Source of the DNA: an uncultured Lachnospiraceae bacterium
GTDB taxonomy: Bacteria > Bacillota > Clostridia > Lachnospirales > Lachnospiraceae
Assembly: GCA_947566705.1 (NCBI GenBank)
Contig: CANOLA010000011.1
Location: 1 to 51,912 of the forward strand
Direction: 5' to 3'
DNA length: 51,912 bases
Program-made: the position numbers and the translations under genes
Shown here: positions 15,601 through 20,262 of the stretch, piece after piece
Numbering within the stretch: the stretch's first letter is position 1
Layout of the letters: the number at the start of each line of letters is the position of its first letter
The notes under the pieces: generated by a model
The model's input: only the letters and a program-made list of their open reading frames with translations
What the model was told of the DNA's origin: nothing
The model's database searches: none

Positions 15601-16369
15601 TTAAGTCCTTTTCTGTTTTTTCCAGTTCCTCCTGCTTTGCCATTGCCTGGTTAATGGCAGAGCTTAACTGGTCTTTTCCGGAGTCAAGGGAAGACTGGCC
15701 GTTCTCCACCTTATTCTTTCCGTCATCTATTTCCGCCTGTGCATCATCAAACTCTTTATCAATGCTCTTTCGGATTTTTTTGTTCAGTGCCTTTATTTTA
15801 TCCTCATTCATTGTAACCTGGATGCTTTCTTCCAGCTGTCCGGTTGTTGTGACGGACGCCACGCCCTCTATACTCTCTATGGACGGGACCAGGTCGTTTT
15901 CTACATAGTCTGAAATTTCAGATGCATCCATCCCGTCAACATCAACTGCCGCAGCAAGAACCGGAAGCATATCCGGGTTTATTTTCATAATAATCGGTGT
16001 TCCGACGGAATCCTCCCACTGCCCCGAAATCTGGTCCAGACTCTGCTGGATCTCAATAACAACAGAATCCATGTTGGCATTCTGCTCATACTCCAGTGTA
16101 ACAATGGAATAACTGTTATAGGATATGGAACGGATTTCCTTGATATTTGATGTGGTTGCCATTGCAGCCTCGATGGGCGCAGTAACATCCTTTTCTACTT
16201 TTTCCGGACTCGCCCCGATATCTGTGGTAATTACCAGCGCATACTGCATGCTCATTTCCGGTAAAAGATCCGTTGTCATTTTTGACAGCGAAACCACGCC
16301 GAGCACGATTACCAGCAGTACACCCACCAGCACGGTAAACGGCCGTTTGACACTGTACTTTGAAATCAT
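12608..16369 (-). CDS. RND-superfamily efflux permease with a long coiled-coil insertion
   Basis: A 1253-residue AcrB-like proton-driven exporter; the usual length is about 1030-1060. The N-terminal helix, two large extracytoplasmic loops and twelve helices are recognisable. The TM4 motif reads GIGMLVDNSIVVIENI (second relay Asp replaced by Asn). The TM10 region reads SGLIVNNGIVLIDYI, where AcrB has its relay Lys. Residues about 196-425 are an extra, highly charged Q/E/K-rich helical segment inserted in the first loop, where AcrB has its docking domain. No adaptor or outer-membrane gene is nearby, as expected in a monoderm. AGGAGG precedes the ATG. The substrate is unknown. Confidence 0.93.
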   Translation of the reverse strand: MISKYSVKRPFTVLVGVLLVIVLGVVSLSKMTTDLLPEMSMQYALVITTDIGASPEKVEKDVTAPIEAAMATTSNIKEIRSISYNSYSIVTLEYEQNANMDSVVIEIQQSLDQISGQWEDSVGTPIIMKINPDMLPVLAAAVDVDGMDASEISDYVENDLVPSIESIEGVASVTTTGQLEESIQVTMNEDKIKALNKKIRKSIDKEFDDAQAEIDDGKNKVENGQSSLDSGKDQLSSAINQAMAKQEELEKTEKDLKKQLKELKEQQKSLKQIQSGIQSFMESEIYQGLITMIKQNPQAVELPEVKAQIDALNAEIKTMFAALEPLGIKVETYEDLPKAAAEIGKLLTQVNQGIATIESALEQVETGKVSLSKALETLNANAALAALEMSTGSAELSTAASSLETAQSNLDDARKNAYDSADLNEILSEDTLSGLFTAQNFDMPAGYAMEGDTQYLVRVGEAVKSMDELKDLVLLDLGMDDVGIIRLSDVADVEMTDNSDETYAVINGNPGIMLSMEKQTGYSTGEVADRILEKFDRLSDEDENLHLSVLMNQGIYIDMIVDSVFQNMIVGAILAVIVLFLFLKDFKPTVVIACSIPLSVITAVVLMYFTGITMNMMSLSGLMLGIGMLVDNSIVVIENIYRLRGEGYSIKQAAVQGADQMVGALVASTLTTISVYAPIIFTEGITRQLFVDLALTIAFTLLASLVVALTFVPALSTATLRRTKEIRHPLFDAFKDIYAGFLSGCLRFKPVVFIVSVVLLAGSMALSLSRGMNFMDMDMETNQLSVTVAAKEGETLTFKELRDAANSVISKISDIEGIDTIGAMAGGNSTMSLMGGGNESVSMYILLDEESGVKASDVSDEIVKRTENMEECEVSTSASSMDMTSFFGSGLSINIQGNDLDKLQKLAADVAEILEKTEGTVDVDDGLDVATPQLEIKVDKEKAAEYGMTVAQVYQLVYAGLADSRSVTTISTDIKDYAVYLQTKEQEDPKLEDIRKLKFTHTDKEGKEKEIPLTKICKMEETTTLSTISRDSQTRYLTVSCGIDEEHNITLVSDSVQKEIDKLKIPEGYNVEMAGEDETINDSMSQLGLMMLLAVIFIYLIMVVQFQSLTSPFIIMFSIPLAFTGGFIALLLTGQELNVISMLGLIMLSGLIVNNGIVLIDYINQQRREGVSKKEAIIEAGITRIRPILMTTLTTVLAMFTTALGTSEGSVMMRPMAITIIGGLLYGTVLTLIVIPCIYDAFNREKSMVEEEL

Positions 16370-16406
16370 AGCTTAACCTCCTGACTTGAACATCGATTGC
16401 ATTTAT

Positions 16407-16424
16407 TGACCGACCGGTCGGTCA
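16407..16424. promoter_or_regulatory. TetR-type operator, perfect 18-bp palindrome
   Basis: TGACCGACCGGTCGGTCA is fully self-complementary. It covers roughly +4 to +21 of the RND-tetR transcript if the start is near 16428. This is the expected place and shape for repression by the TetR-family protein encoded at the end of the operon. Confidence 0.9.
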
Positions 16425-16435
16425 GTTTCGTTTTC

Positions 16436-16463
16436 ATTATACGCGACAGGATAAGATTTACAA
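16436..16463 (-). promoter_or_regulatory. promoter of the RND-tetR operon
   Basis: TATAAT at 16436-16441 and TTGTAA at 16458-16463 are separated by 16 bp on the minus strand. The palindromic operator lies immediately downstream, and the AGGAGG site and ATG (16369) follow. Confidence 0.82.
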
Positions 16464-16539
16464 GCCAAACTTCTTATTTTTTACATTTATTTTAGATTTT
16501 ATACAGACCTGGGAAATAATTTCCATGAAACTTGCATAC

Positions 16540-16569
16540 AAAAAGCAGGGATGATACCGTCCCTGCTTT
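16540..16569. terminator. terminator of the 42-codon peptide gene
   Basis: AAAGCAGGGA (16542-16551) pairs perfectly with TCCCTGCTTT (16560-16569) around an 8-nt loop. The minus strand continues with a T run. It separates the peptide gene from the RND promoter. Confidence 0.88.
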
Positions 16570-16577
16570 CTGCTTCA

Positions 16578-16706
16578 TTATTCTTCTTCAAGACTCTCTT
16601 CATCCACAATTGCTGCAGATGCGCCTGATACGGCTGCAATGACTGCAATCAGCGCTCCAAGAACCGCAACGCCTGCCACTGCCCCGATGATAAATAATAC
16701 TTCCAT
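16578..16706 (-). CDS. 42-residue hydrophobic peptide with acidic tail
   Basis: Translation from the ATG at 16706 gives MEVLFIIGAVAG, then an Ala/Val/Ile/Gly-rich membrane-length segment up to about residue 30. It ends in the acidic tail VDEESLEEE and a TAA stop at 16578-16580. GGGAG lies about nine bases upstream. It has its own near-consensus promoter (16741-16769) and a strong terminator (16540-16569), so it forms a complete small transcription unit. One membrane helix and an acidic cytoplasmic or external tail are predicted. I recognise no family. Candidates are a small membrane regulator, a toxin-like peptide or a secreted peptide precursor; none is shown. Confidence 0.7.
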   Translation of the reverse strand: MEVLFIIGAVAGVAVLGALIAVIAAVSGASAAIVDEESLEEE

Positions 16707-16740
16707 CTTTCTTTCTCCCGGATTCTTTTATGATATATCC

Positions 16741-16769
16741 AGTATAGCACATGCCAGAGGCTGGTACAA
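16741..16769 (-). promoter_or_regulatory. promoter of the 42-codon peptide gene
   Basis: TTGTAC at 16764-16769 and TATACT at 16741-16746 are separated by 17 bp on the minus strand. The start would be near 16734, leaving a leader of about 28 bases. Confidence 0.78.
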
Positions 16770-16803
16770 GCTTTAGTTCAAATAATGTCAGCCTCGGAAA
16801 ATT

Positions 16804-18162
16804 TTACAGACAGATTGTCATATAGGGAGGAATGCACAGTATGTCATCCTTTACCGCTAGATTCCGCGGATGAATGATATAACATTCGCCAATTCTTGTT
16901 TTATATTTTTCCCGGAACCGCAGAAGGGAGGCTGTTGTATAATTTTTCCCGGACTTCACCTCGACCGGAAACAGTTTATACTTTATTTTACTGTTGCTGG
17001 AAAGCAGAAAATCAATCTCTATGTCATTTCTGTGCTTTTCCTCACTGTAATGCGTGTAAAAATAAAGCTTATGACCGTTTGCGACAAGCATCTGCGCAAT
17101 CATGTTTTCATAAAGCATGCCTTCATTCATAGACAGTTTTCCTGCCAGAATCTGCTTATATACCTCTGCTTCCAGCAGTTCATTTTCGTCAAATGCATGG
17201 CTGACCAGTAAACCTGTATCTCCCATGTAACACTTGACATACGCCCTTGTTTCATTTATGGACAGCCCGATATTCGGATCATTACAGAGAAAACACTCAT
17301 TCGCTATCATGGAATCTGCCAGCCAGAAAAATGTATTGTCGTACTGTTCGGCATAGGAACCCTCTTTAATCTGCTTAAAGACCACCCGTTTTTCATGCTG
17401 GGAAAGCAATCCCGGCATCTGGTCATAAACTGCCAGCACTCTGGCTTTGTACTGTGCGCCGATTTTCATGATGTCGCTTCTGTATAATTCCAGTATATCT
17501 CTTTTTTCCAAGTCCGCCTGCTCAAAATCCTTATGGCTTTCCAGAAAAAGGACAACACTTTTCGGCATTCCGCCAACCAGCATATACTGTTTGAACAGCA
17601 TCATGGCATTATTATGCAGACTGCGTTCCAGCGGTTTCTTTTTTTCAAAGCACTCTCTGATATAATTTATCAGCGGCTCCTCGCCAAAAGCCCACGCAAA
17701 CTCCTCAAAGTCCAGCGGATTCATCTTTAAATGCCGCTCTTCCGACGGAATTACAATATCCGCTACATTTTCCCTGATGGATATCAAAGAACCCGTTTCC
17801 AGATAATCATATCTGCCGTCTGCAACCAGATATTTAATTGCTGCCCGCGCTGTGGGAAACATCTGTATCTCATCAAAAATCAGAAGGGAATCCCTTTCAT
17901 ACAGTTTCGTTCCATAGTAAGTGGAAACAAGCATGAACAAGGTATCGAGATCATTCATATACCGCCTGAAATAGCCTTTCAGCTCATCTGATTCCCTGGC
18001 AAAATCAATCACTATATAGCTTTTATATTCATTTTTACCAAACTCCTCGCATACGGTTGATTTCCCGATTCGTCTGGCTCCTTCAATTAACACAGCCTTT
18101 TTCCCCCGACTGGTTTTCTTCCAGTCCAGAAGCTTATCGTATATTTTCCTTTTCAGAACCAT
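16804..18162 (-). CDS. AAA ATPase (AAA_14) with C-terminal DUF4143
   Basis: A 452-residue protein. Walker A is GARRIGKST at about residues 28-36 and Walker B is LLIFDEIQ near 93-100. A middle helical part and a C-terminal DUF4143 region follow, with IDFLL and, further on, FPVEVKSGKNY. The spaced D and E-x-K residues recall PD-(D/E)XK nuclease folds; that link is inference. The family is widespread in gut bacteria and its function is unsettled. GAGGAGA lies eight bases before the ATG. Upstream is an array of five 34-bp direct repeats that overlaps the predicted promoter, so expression is probably controlled there. No partner gene is evident. Confidence 0.9.
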   Translation of the reverse strand: MVLKRKIYDKLLDWKKTSRGKKAVLIEGARRIGKSTVCEEFGKNEYKSYIVIDFARESDELKGYFRRYMNDLDTLFMLVSTYYGTKLYERDSLLIFDEIQMFPTARAAIKYLVADGRYDYLETGSLISIRENVADIVIPSEERHLKMNPLDFEEFAWAFGEEPLINYIRECFEKKKPLERSLHNNAMMLFKQYMLVGGMPKSVVLFLESHKDFEQADLEKRDILELYRSDIMKIGAQYKARVLAVYDQMPGLLSQHEKRVVFKQIKEGSYAEQYDNTFFWLADSMIANECFLCNDPNIGLSINETRAYVKCYMGDTGLLVSHAFDENELLEAEVYKQILAGKLSMNEGMLYENMIAQMLVANGHKLYFYTHYSEEKHRNDIEIDFLLSSNSKIKYKLFPVEVKSGKNYTTASLLRFREKYKTRIGECYIIHPRNLAVKDDILCIPPYMTICL

Positions 18163-18207
18163 TCCGGTATCTCCTCTTTTCTTACCCTGCGCCTGATAAA
18201 TCCACTA

Positions 18208-18357
18208 TTTTGATTATGCGCACTTTTATTGTACATTATTCTTTGATTATGCGCAAGGTTAAAAAGTGTATATTCTATGATTATGCGCAGTGTTATAAAA
18301 TGTCTATTATTTGATTATGCGCAGTGTTATGAAGTGCTTATTCTTTGATTATGCGCA
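18208..18357. repeat. iteron-like array: five direct repeats of 33-34 bp
   Basis: The 12-base core TGATTATGCGCA recurs without change at 18211, 18244, 18278, 18312 and 18346, so the steps are 33, 34, 34 and 34 bp. The 21-22 bases between cores are partly conserved, mostly AT-rich with a GTGTTA..AAGTG..TATT pattern. The array fills the space between the ATPase start (18162) and the deacetylase stop (18362). No reading frame uses it sensibly, since the period is not a multiple of three. Confidence 0.95.
18228..18256 (-). promoter_or_regulatory. candidate promoter of the ATPase gene inside the repeat array
   Basis: On the minus strand TTGCGC (18251-18256) and TACAAT (18228-18233) are separated by 17 bp. 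The -35 lies within core copy 2, and core copy 1 would cover the transcription start near 18221. Copies 3-5 would then lie at about -62, -96 and -130. The -35 match is only partial. Confidence 0.5.
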
Positions 18358-18361
18358 ATAT

Positions 18362-19165
18362 TTACTGTTTTTTTTCATTTGCAATCTGCTTTCCCGCCAC
18401 ATCCATGTGGTAATTTTCCTTCATAATCAGCTCAGATATCGGCCCAATGGTATATCCCTGCCCTTCCAGGTTCGTCAGCATGGTATCCAGTGCCTCCGCG
18501 GTGTATTTCGCGCCGTTGTGGCAGAGAATGATTGCCCCCGGTCCCAGCGCCTTATGGTTGCACACGGTACTGATAATGGAATCCACGCCGTAATCCTTCC
18601 AGTCCAGACTGTCCACGGACCACTGGATTGGATAATATTTTAATCTGTATGCGGTTTTTATCACTGCATTGTCATACGCGCCATAAGGCGGACGGAAAAG
18701 AAACATCTCATATCCAGTCAGTTCTTTCACTTTATTATGTACATCCATCAGTTCTTTTTCCTGTTCACTCTGGGAAATCGTTGTCATATCATAATGATGC
18801 TGGCTGTGGTTGCCCAGGTCATGCCCCCTTTTTACCAGCTCCTTTACGCAGTCCGGATTATCATCCACCCAGCCGCCTGTCATGAAAAAAGTCACCTTTA
18901 CCTTGTGCTTATCCAGAATATCCATGATTTTCGGAAAATCCTCCGCTCCCCATGCAGCATCAAAACTTAATGCGATCCTCTTTTCTGTTGTATCCACACA
19001 GTAAATCGGCAATTCCCTGTCCCCGACAGTTGCACTTGTAATGACTGCGCTTGTGCTTTCATAGGCAATAAAAATCAGACATGCAAAAAGAGCCACTAAA
19101 AAAAACCCGTTTTCCAGATTTTTCCGTGCCTCTTTTTTGTATTTGTTAAATTGAAATATCCGCAT
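18362..19165 (-). CDS. polysaccharide deacetylase, PdaB-like (NodB domain)
   Basis: A 267-residue protein with a single N-terminal membrane anchor (about residues 21-43), so the enzyme domain is extracytoplasmic. The NodB homology domain shows IALSFDAAWG (motif 1), HSQHH (the two metal-binding His, motif 2) and RPPYG (motif 3). The SFDAAWG form is typical of sporulation-associated PdaB-like proteins acting on peptidoglycan or other N-acetylated glycans. The ger operon elsewhere in the window fits a sporulating host. The stop is five bases from the last repeat core of the array; no terminator is visible between them. Confidence 0.88.
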   Translation of the reverse strand: MRIFQFNKYKKEARKNLENGFFLVALFACLIFIAYESTSAVITSATVGDRELPIYCVDTTEKRIALSFDAAWGAEDFPKIMDILDKHKVKVTFFMTGGWVDDNPDCVKELVKRGHDLGNHSQHHYDMTTISQSEQEKELMDVHNKVKELTGYEMFLFRPPYGAYDNAVIKTAYRLKYYPIQWSVDSLDWKDYGVDSIISTVCNHKALGPGAIILCHNGAKYTAEALDTMLTNLEGQGYTIGPISELIMKENYHMDVAGKQIANEKKQ

Positions 19166-19193: not shown

Positions 19194-19646
19194 CTATTGT
19201 ATGTGCGGTTGGCAGAAGTTAGAACCTGAACTGTATTTTTGGTTTTCCTGATAAAGATTTTTTAAATCTTCAATTGCCATTTCATAGGACATAACATGGA
19301 GTCCCTGAAACATCCTGTTTAAAAGGGACAGCGGTGCCTGGGTTATAATTTCCTCCGGTGTATCATCATACAGCAGGCTCCATACACGGTACAGATACCC
19401 CGCCCAGTACATTACATCATCTGAAAAAGTTTCGCCTTTTTCAAAATGAAGCTCATCCTCCAGCACGGACATAACATAAGTTTCGCCCAGCCAGTTTGTC
19501 GGCAGGTCCTTATTGTAAAAAACCGGTGCAATTTCCGAGTGAAAAAGCCGCTCTGCAAATTTAACGGAATCAGCATTTCTCTCATTTGCAAGTAAAAAAA
19601 GCTTTGCTGACTGTCTGCATAAACTATGGTCTGCTGCCAAATTCAT
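19194..19646 (-). CDS. unrecognised 150-residue protein, partner of the DUF3990 gene
   Basis: I do not recognise a family. The protein is helical and acidic, with SAKLFLLANERNADSVKFAERLF near the start and a central YRVWSLLYDD. It begins inside the end of the DUF3990 gene. The ATG at 19646 has GGAGG six bases upstream and the overlap is 23 bp, so the two are translationally coupled. That arrangement is common for toxin-antitoxin or effector-immunity pairs. The frame extends to 19670, but the better ribosome site favours 19646. Function is inferred from position only. Confidence 0.65.
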   Translation of the reverse strand: MNLAADHSLCRQSAKLFLLANERNADSVKFAERLFHSEIAPVFYNKDLPTNWLGETYVMSVLEDELHFEKGETFSDDVMYWAGYLYRVWSLLYDDTPEEIITQAPLSLLNRMFQGLHVMSYEMAIEDLKNLYQENQKYSSGSNFCQPHIQ

Positions 19647-20262
19647 TCCATTCCTCCAGTATTTCATCAAAATATTTCACATCTCTGGCATGCCGGTATT
19701 TTACCTTTATCTGCGGAACAATATCCGCTGTCTGTATTTTTCTGTTTTTCTCCTGCGCGACGGCTGTTTTTAGCTCGGCATCACTTAATTTTTTTTCGTC
19801 CACTATTTTAATATGTTTATCAGAACATGCTTTTACCGTTTTAAAAACATACTGACTCCCCAATTTAACCCTGGTAAGAGCTTCTAAGAATCCCCTGTCA
19901 CATACATTCATATTAAAAAATTCGTCAATAATCTGATACATTTTATCATTTGCAATTAATCCTGCAATAACATCATAATCCCGATTATATGCAATAAAAA
20001 GTGCCCAGTCCATCTGCTCCACATAATCTTCACCAAATTTTTTTACGTTCAGTCCATCCAGATTACAGTCAAGCACATAAAATCTGTGACCAGGCCATGC
20101 CGCAATCATTCCCCGCGGCTGGTCAGGTTTATCTCCCGTATAAAATCCACAGCCGAAATCACATTCTCCCCTGCTGGTATCAGGTCTGATATTCCCCCGT
20201 ATTCCCTTTTTTGAACCATGATATAATCTTATCACAGGCAGCTCCTTTGTCCATGTCTTCAC
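19624..20262 (-). CDS. DUF3990 protein, ADP-ribosyltransferase-like
   Basis: A 212-residue protein. The N-terminal part shows VIRLYHGSKKGIRG at about residues 10-23 and CDFGCGFYTGDKP at about 34-46. That pattern is characteristic of DUF3990 and resembles the H and Y elements of the ADP-ribosyltransferase fold. A later block, YDVIAGLIANDKMYQIIDEFF, is also typical of the group. Start is a GTG at 20262, five bases after GAGG. It lies 33 bp behind mtnN and overlaps the downstream unknown gene by 23 bp. Catalysis, target and toxicity are inference. It is out of theme among the metabolic genes around it. Confidence 0.72.
   Translation of the reverse strand: MKTWTKELPVIRLYHGSKKGIRGNIRPDTSRGECDFGCGFYTGDKPDQPRGMIAAWPGHRFYVLDCNLDGLNVKKFGEDYVEQMDWALFIAYNRDYDVIAGLIANDKMYQIIDEFFNMNVCDRGFLEALTRVKLGSQYVFKTVKACSDKHIKIVDEKKLSDAELKTAVAQEKNRKIQTADIVPQIKVKYRHARDVKYFDEILEEWNEFGSRP

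Follow-up and report, generated by a model that had tools for sequence, protein, structure and literature searches.

A clade-specific repeat array that diverges with its ATPase-nuclease is a candidate operator of PDC-S01 genes

In the genome of an uncultured Lachnospiraceae bacterium, five copies of a 12-bp word stand in front of a gene for an AAA_14/DUF4143 ATPase, which raises the question of whether the repeats belong to the ATPase and what they might do there. The window, i.e., the whole stretch of DNA that was analysed, comprises 51,912 nucleotides. TGATTATGCGCA is found in it as five exact copies of one orientation, between a polysaccharide deacetylase gene (18362..19165, minus strand) and the ATPase gene (16804..18162, minus strand, 452 aa). 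Read in the direction of the ATPase gene, the word becomes TGCGCATAATCA, and the minus-strand copies lie at 18211..18222 (nearest to the ATPase), 18244..18255 (second nearest), 18278..18289, 18312..18323 and 18346..18357 (farthest), with steps of 33, 34, 34 and 34 bp. Exact matching thus bore out the five-copy invariant core and its step of 33-34 bp that the initial annotation had described, but moved the start of the array from 18208 to 18211. That the array exactly fills the gap between the two genes is slightly overstated: 4 bp separate it from the end of the deacetylase frame at 18362, but 48 bp lie between it and the ATPase ATG at 18162. No exact TGATTATGCGCA other than these five was found in the window, and the rest of the genome assembly (160 contigs, 84% complete) held one more, single and inside an unrelated coding frame. 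The region upstream of the ATPase gene reached the maximal three-copy score (36/36), which was attained by 0 of 200 dinucleotide shuffles.

The window ATPase was assigned to PDC-S01 by family profiles covering most of the protein. The PADLOC profile PDLC04792 matched residues 3-452 (E 2.2e-103), Pfam gave AAA_14 (E 8.4e-21) and DUF4143 (E 1.3e-16), and NCBIfam returned no match. PDC-S01, an ATPase fused to PD-(D/E)XK, is described in the accessible text of its report as ranking fourth in frequency among the defences of all prokaryotes (PMC12988326). According to the accessible accounts, validation is pending for most such candidates, and no test of PDC-S01 is reported there. PADLOC places the window protein in a widespread family of defence candidates; it is possibly a defence element, and a role in phage defence is plausible from its family. 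The structural model gives the protein a STAND/Cdc6-like ATPase and a PD-(D/E)XK nuclease: an ATPase core is followed by a winged helix with the STAND/Cdc6 fold, as in STAND/MNS-type ATPases, and the motifs of both ATPase and nuclease are intact. The likeliest candidate for a DNA reader is the winged-helix-like region (residues 233-345, 17128..17466, minus strand), whose limits were drawn from the model and whose residues 262-269 are modelled with low confidence. Group-specific residues occupied 12 of its 113 columns versus 17 of 339 elsewhere, a modest raw excess that is confounded by phylogeny. The nuclease domain covers residues 346-452 (16807..17127, minus strand), and a motif check agreed with the nuclease-like D...E-x-K spacing noticed earlier at the C terminus: E352, E401 and K403 were invariant in 72 aligned sequences of the array clade, and D384 was present in at least 90%. 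A PDB sequence search returned nothing for the window protein or its profile, and the nuclease profile gave weak matches only (best E 0.047). A profile scan of the ATPase and three neighbouring genes detected only AAA_14, DUF4143, a sub-threshold AAA_22, the deacetylase and DUF3990.

Does the array accompany such ATPases elsewhere? One genome for each of 84,980 species was scanned for two exact cores 12-40 bp apart, which yielded 26 loci. In 13 of them, from Treponema, Lachnospiraceae and other Clostridia, the cognate ATPase was the immediate neighbour of the array, always in the same relative orientation (L009 and L016 are truncated where the contig or locus ends, and L024 is distributed over different frames); five more carried pieces of the gene. 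The core was thus not found mostly away from DUF4143 genes, an outcome that the initial annotation had allowed for. Three loci from Bacilli (L012, L019 and L022) had the 12-mer in common but were rejected as relatives, since their repeats are unrelated and have other steps, and the sequence examined contained no ATPase; the L012 genome gave no DUF4143 match. In L012 (1160-1714) and L019 (5163-5974), we observed long arrays of about 51-bp units, each containing the same 12-mer and an inverted CACTGAAT...ATTCAGTG pair. Since the core-pair scan is biased toward the word of the window, genes were then chosen by protein alone. Window-type ATPases are rare across the phylum, with 3 of 299 phylum genomes, the own genome included, positive at E <= 1e-60; among 250 genomes of the family, 38 had a match at E <= 1e-100. 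Thirty loci were chosen by protein, the window included, and all 29 testable ones (44-100% identity to the window protein) carried a direct-repeat array upstream, with p values of 0.0 to 0.025 against 200 shuffles and a word mostly different from that of the window.

DUF4143 genes were then put through a common test, in which three 12-mers with steps of 28-36 bp were sought within 250 bp upstream of 168 genes; 23 of 191 candidates had been dropped as duplicates or because the script found no gene or start. Because a script picked the start codons, the p value of an individual gene can shift. At p <= 0.005, arrays were detected in 81/168 upstream regions versus 4/102 downstream regions and 0/168 coding regions. 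As this set combines draws from the family with genes related to the window protein, the overall fraction is uninformative on the whole family, and the split by clade is what informs. At p <= 0.01, arrays with a period of 28-36 bp were present directly upstream of 60 of the 68 genes of the window clade (Walker A GARRxGKS), and four of the eight failing genes had p values of 0.012-0.04. Ten of the clade's genes (L209-L218) were added later; two were not testable, and the eight tested, among which L210, L213 and L214 failed, are counted within the 68. L188 passed at steps of 26-38 bp and failed at 28-36 bp. Three window-clade genes examined later still (L252, L253 and L255) all had arrays. The sister block (GxRQ..GKT) had arrays in 23/41, including L155, for which the test picked up a neighbouring array of the window type. 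At the same cut-off, the G[IV]RR[CS]GKS clade had none (0/20), other GxRQ genes had 2/26 (1/26 at 23 bp), and the GPK[WG]C clade had 0/11 at 33 bp and 11/11 at 23 bp; two of two GPRQSGKT genes of this first set had arrays at 23 bp. As a control, upstream regions of 102 other genes in 35 loci gave five matches, and four at 23 bp; two of the five (L021 and L023) were the same array as in the window, seen from the neighbouring gene. The link between repeats and ATPase therefore extends well beyond the locus (60/68 versus 5/102). The proposition that all DUF4143 genes have arrays was rejected, since the arrays are clade-specific; the opposite one in the initial annotation, that homologues generally lack them, is true of some DUF4143 clades and false of others.

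When 12-of-13 matches were counted per lag in the 168 upstream regions, the number of genes had a sharp maximum at 33 bp (60), followed by 34 (19), 32 (16), 29 (8) and 31 bp (5). Harmonics appeared at 66 (38) and 99 bp (8), while 23 (12) and 46 bp (13) formed another series; shuffle means were 0 to 0.6 genes per lag. A separate phylum-wide draw of 25 loci, three of them not testable, gave arrays in 3/22 genes, exactly the three GPKWCGKT genes and all at 23 bp. None was detected in its two GPRQSGKT genes, its three sister-type genes, or L270, L272 and L273, which have a GARR- or GPRR-like Walker A and fall outside the window clade (E 3e-6 to 0.04 to the window protein, versus 1.6e-90 or better for the clade members compared). 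Most DUF4143 genes of this draw were without a direct array, and the 23-bp rule held for the GPK clade and failed for GPRQSGKT. The 23-bp arrays (L082, L089, L092, L095, L100, L104, L105, L158-L161 and L267-L269) belong to proteins with Walker A GPK[WG]CGK[TS] and one GARWCGKT; their step is exactly 23 bp, roughly a helical turn less than 33 bp.

Perfect 9-bp inverted arms were distributed otherwise: they were found upstream of 11/28 genes grouped as other, 3/20 of the G[IV]RR clade and 5/41 of the sister block, and of 2/68 in the window clade and 0/11 in the 23-bp GPK[WG]C clade. With 30 shuffles each, 8 of the 28 other genes had p <= 0.05, which is only suggestive of inverted-repeat operators in other DUF4143 clades. 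Such inverted repeats were noted in L048, L052, L056, L061, L138, L140, L145, L146, L150, L152 and L165, with 24-35 bp from start to start in 10 of the 11. Separately, the last lysine of the nuclease motif seems to have been lost in the G[IV]RR clade, where arrays are absent, and is kept by array-bearing clades, as read from few sequences (L120 and L128 versus L054, L082, L095, L105, L153, L158 and L160). A count with our nuclease-motif pattern (1/20 in the G[IV]RR clade) pointed the same way, but this pattern was too strict: the E-x-D...E-[IV]-K present in the GPK[WG]C clade escaped it.

Word identity rose with protein identity among 84 array genes, selected at p <= 0.012 after leaving out L155 (neighbouring array) and L048, L061 and L142 (other clades). 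It was about 0.47-0.50 below 60% protein identity, close to the 0.46 of shuffled words, and reached 0.56 at 60-70%, 0.69 at 70-80% and 0.79 above. The Mantel r was 0.355, and the largest of 2000 permutations gave 0.114. Shared descent of linked DNA contributes to this correlation and would alone give some of it. Paralogues within one genome had unrelated words (26 hand-listed pairs, at least one further pair, L184 with L239, lying outside the set; mean 0.49, highest 0.62); the window gene, L038 and L034, for instance, share a genome and have three different words. One ATPase subclade, on the other hand, has the same word in Treponema as in Lachnospiraceae, amid flanks that are mostly unrelated. 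Recognition is favoured because words of paralogues are unrelated while one subclade keeps one word across hosts, and the word tracks the ATPase, not the host. The same data bear on the idea that the array is bound by a host regulator instead of the ATPase. It is common for an operator to be bound by another protein, but a host regulator would hardly account for words that follow the ATPase sequence and differ between paralogues of one host, or for an identical word in Treponema and Lachnospiraceae hosts, and we consider this reading improbable.

The arrays also have the position of an operator. In the 84 array genes, the last copy ended at a median of 38 bp before the start codon; arrays had three (51), four (22), five (9) or six copies (2), and 133 of 214 steps were exactly 33 bp. 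The earlier proposal that the second core supplies a -35 and the first covers the start point fits the window sequence. A putative -35, TTGCGC (18256-18251, minus strand), overlaps the second-nearest copy; a putative -10, TACAAT (18228..18233, minus strand), follows at 17 bp, within the 33-bp step nearest the gene and 11 bp before the next core, so the expected start falls on the copy at 18211-18222. Among 17 intact arrays of the window's subclade, 12 have one step shortened to 29 bp, and 11 of these 12 steps contain a -10 hexamer (TATAAT, one mismatch allowed) that starts exactly 7 bp ahead of the next core, versus any such box near the next core in 4/32 steps of 32-34 bp. The window's own array has no 29-bp step, and L180-L182 were poorly caught by the promoter-step script because their words differ. 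Given a 17-bp spacer, the -10 box of a 29-bp step would place the -35 on the core before it and the start on the core after it. The repeats accordingly overlap the predicted promoter of their own gene.

Taken together, we think it probable that each PDC-S01 ATPase of the window clade acts as a repressor of its own promoter by binding the array in front of its gene. The array would be the private operator of the gene downstream, and the winged-helix region beside the STAND/Cdc6-like core would probably be the part of the ATPase that recognises the repeated word. Copies about three helical turns apart could let the ATPase align as an ATP-dependent oligomer, much as Orc1/Cdc6 lines up on origin repeats. 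With repeats over the -35 and the start site, occupancy would shut the promoter and keep the level of the nuclease low; if occupancy were lost, because the ATPase is drawn away or its nucleotide state changes during invasion, expression would rise and the PD-(D/E)XK nuclease might be released. The suggestion of a self-contained DNA-recognition unit with an autoregulated ATPase is in this respect well supported by comparison, i.e., by clade-wide arrays, co-divergence of word and protein, and promoter geometry, all of them read from DNA.

Simple autorepression leaves unexplained the arrays that lack a cognate ATPase, which come from incomplete assemblies. Ten of the 26 scanned loci had an array without a working cognate gene, five with gene pieces and five without clear pieces. 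The remains were codons 379-452 in L003, the last 15 codons in L025, the last six in L008, the first 41 in L005, and the last ten in L021, the latter found by eye since a stop precedes the piece and the debris script missed it. L004, L006 and L007 showed no clear gene debris beside the array, and the near-identical L011 and L013 had a six-residue match only (p 0.037 and 0.017). These ten incomplete genome assemblies contained no relative above 61% identity at E <= 1e-60. Also observed in L013 (Spirochaetaceae) were short repeated TTACGTA-type palindromes common to the upstream regions of two neighbouring frames (upstream of 6703 and 7510). Orphan arrays would be expected if the array were less an operator than an address or loading site for the nuclease, at which the ATPase assembles and is licensed or held inactive, with orphans acting as decoys or protection against an incoming copy. 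The three to six phased copies, more than one repressor site needs, and the modelled likeness to STAND and Cdc6 proteins point the same way. The promoter geometry, however, closely fits an operator, and 8 of the 10 orphan arrays lack a -10 box between cores and five retain gene debris, as plain relics would; we therefore regard a loading site as rather unlikely.

In L003, L008, L021 and L025, about 20 bp or less lie between the edge of the array and the remaining last codons of the gene, an arrangement that looks like a recurrent deletion from the array edge to the gene end. Internally deleted mobile elements have this appearance, and array and ATPase might form such an element, with the array and the 3' end of the gene as its ends. 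Sequence before the array and past the stop codon is, by eye, mostly unlike among relatives, so the inherited unit is array plus gene, and five same-genus loci gave no blastn match to array or ATPase behind the deacetylase gene (a sixth, L178, matched partially). Deacetylase genes of these five are only 67-79% identical, however, so a clean empty site is undefinable. Most relatives share no sequence at either edge, and the downstream stretch common to L014, L015 and L017 past the stop codon fits a shared neighbourhood. A DNA transposon was rejected because no paired ends were found: the four inverted pairs of at least 12 nt in 16300-18900 do not link the array with the end of the gene. The profile scan found no transposase or integrase domain in the protein, and selection against the gene would also explain the deletions. 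Autorepression by the ATPase is preferred over a mobile element, which we judge quite improbable; what stands of the label mobile is horizontal spread of the array-gene unit, not transposon ends. The window further contains a DUF3990 gene and a small partner frame (19194-20262) between a nucleosidase-like gene and the deacetylase gene. These two are adjacent in L168, so the DUF3990 pair also looks inserted; gene names other than DUF3990 and deacetylase were read from translations.

Some relatives of the window ATPase lie on plasmids. From 72 plasmid and phage records with a match, 11 plasmid or fecal-scaffold loci were tested, and 10 gave p = 0.005. The step was 32-34 bp in nine of these ten, from Bacteroidota (L241, L243, L247 and L251), Actinomycetota (L246), Pseudomonadota (L249), Bacillota (L242) and two unassigned scaffolds (L244 and L245), and 42 bp in L250; L248 had p = 0.05. 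In L248 and L249 (Acinetobacter and Vibrio plasmids), the units before the ATPase gene are palindromic around TGCGCA. A viral origin of the array was rejected, as no exact core pair was detected in a scan of viral contigs; a relative does occur on fecal "phage" scaffolds, but these records are unverified and their words differ. Plasmid relatives, together with operator-size direct repeats beside an ATPase of initiator-like fold, could recall a plasmid iteron or copy-control remnant, as first suggested. This is very doubtful: no replication-initiator domain was found in the ATPase or the three neighbouring genes, the relative L018 sits on a 6.3-Mb contig, genomes of the family sample have up to 13 DUF4143 genes, several paralogues per genome are differently addressed, and the arrays end before the start codon as operators do.

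More tentatively, we can imagine PDC-S01 proteins as individually addressed sentinels, each with a private, co-evolving address on which its STAND/Cdc6-like ATPase would assemble and whose occupancy would silence the gene and restrain the nuclease. Disturbance of the assembly by infection would release it, orphan arrays would confer immunity to incoming copies, and the layout (33 bp, 23 bp or, in other clades, inverted pairs) would reflect the grip of each clade's oligomer on DNA; this broader scheme is conceivable, though not likely. A matched address before the gene offers a binding substrate and a measurable promoter for PDC-S01, whose published accounts, in their accessible text, do not explain how the candidate works, and thus a direct handle on family function. 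The many natural protein-DNA pairs can be used for learning a recognition code, and orphan arrays are a way to spot lost PDC-S01 genes. If each paralogue reads a private address, the reason for many paralogues per genome becomes testable. The accessible literature on DUF4143, PDC-S01 and AAA_14, preprints aside and including PMC12988326, PMC13356809 and PMC4406477, contained no report of such arrays.

How does this arrangement compare with known systems? PDC-S01 as published is the same protein family (E 2.2e-103), and its accessible description makes no mention of a direct or tandem repeat, promoter, operator or iteron, whereas the window gene has a matched cis array. Matches of the STAND/MNS-type archaeal ATPases 2QEN and 2FNA to the window protein stop short of the nuclease domain. 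The archaeal initiators Cdc6/Orc1 have, like the window protein as modelled, a related ATPase fold with a winged helix, and repeated DNA words at the origin, here found beside the gene; unlike them, the window clade has a C-terminal nuclease, an array over the promoter, differently addressed paralogues and no sign of an origin. Iterons of plasmid Rep systems are tandem direct repeats with a near-constant step, an autoregulation-like position and words that diverged between units. The array shares these features, but differs by the absence of a Rep domain and by its main step of 33 bp; iteron steps are about 22 bp, to which the 23-bp clade is nearer. In restriction-modification controller systems, repeated sites overlie the promoter of a nuclease gene. 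The likeness would be one of working, with the difference that here a single protein would be both nuclease and regulator, acting on long phased arrays.
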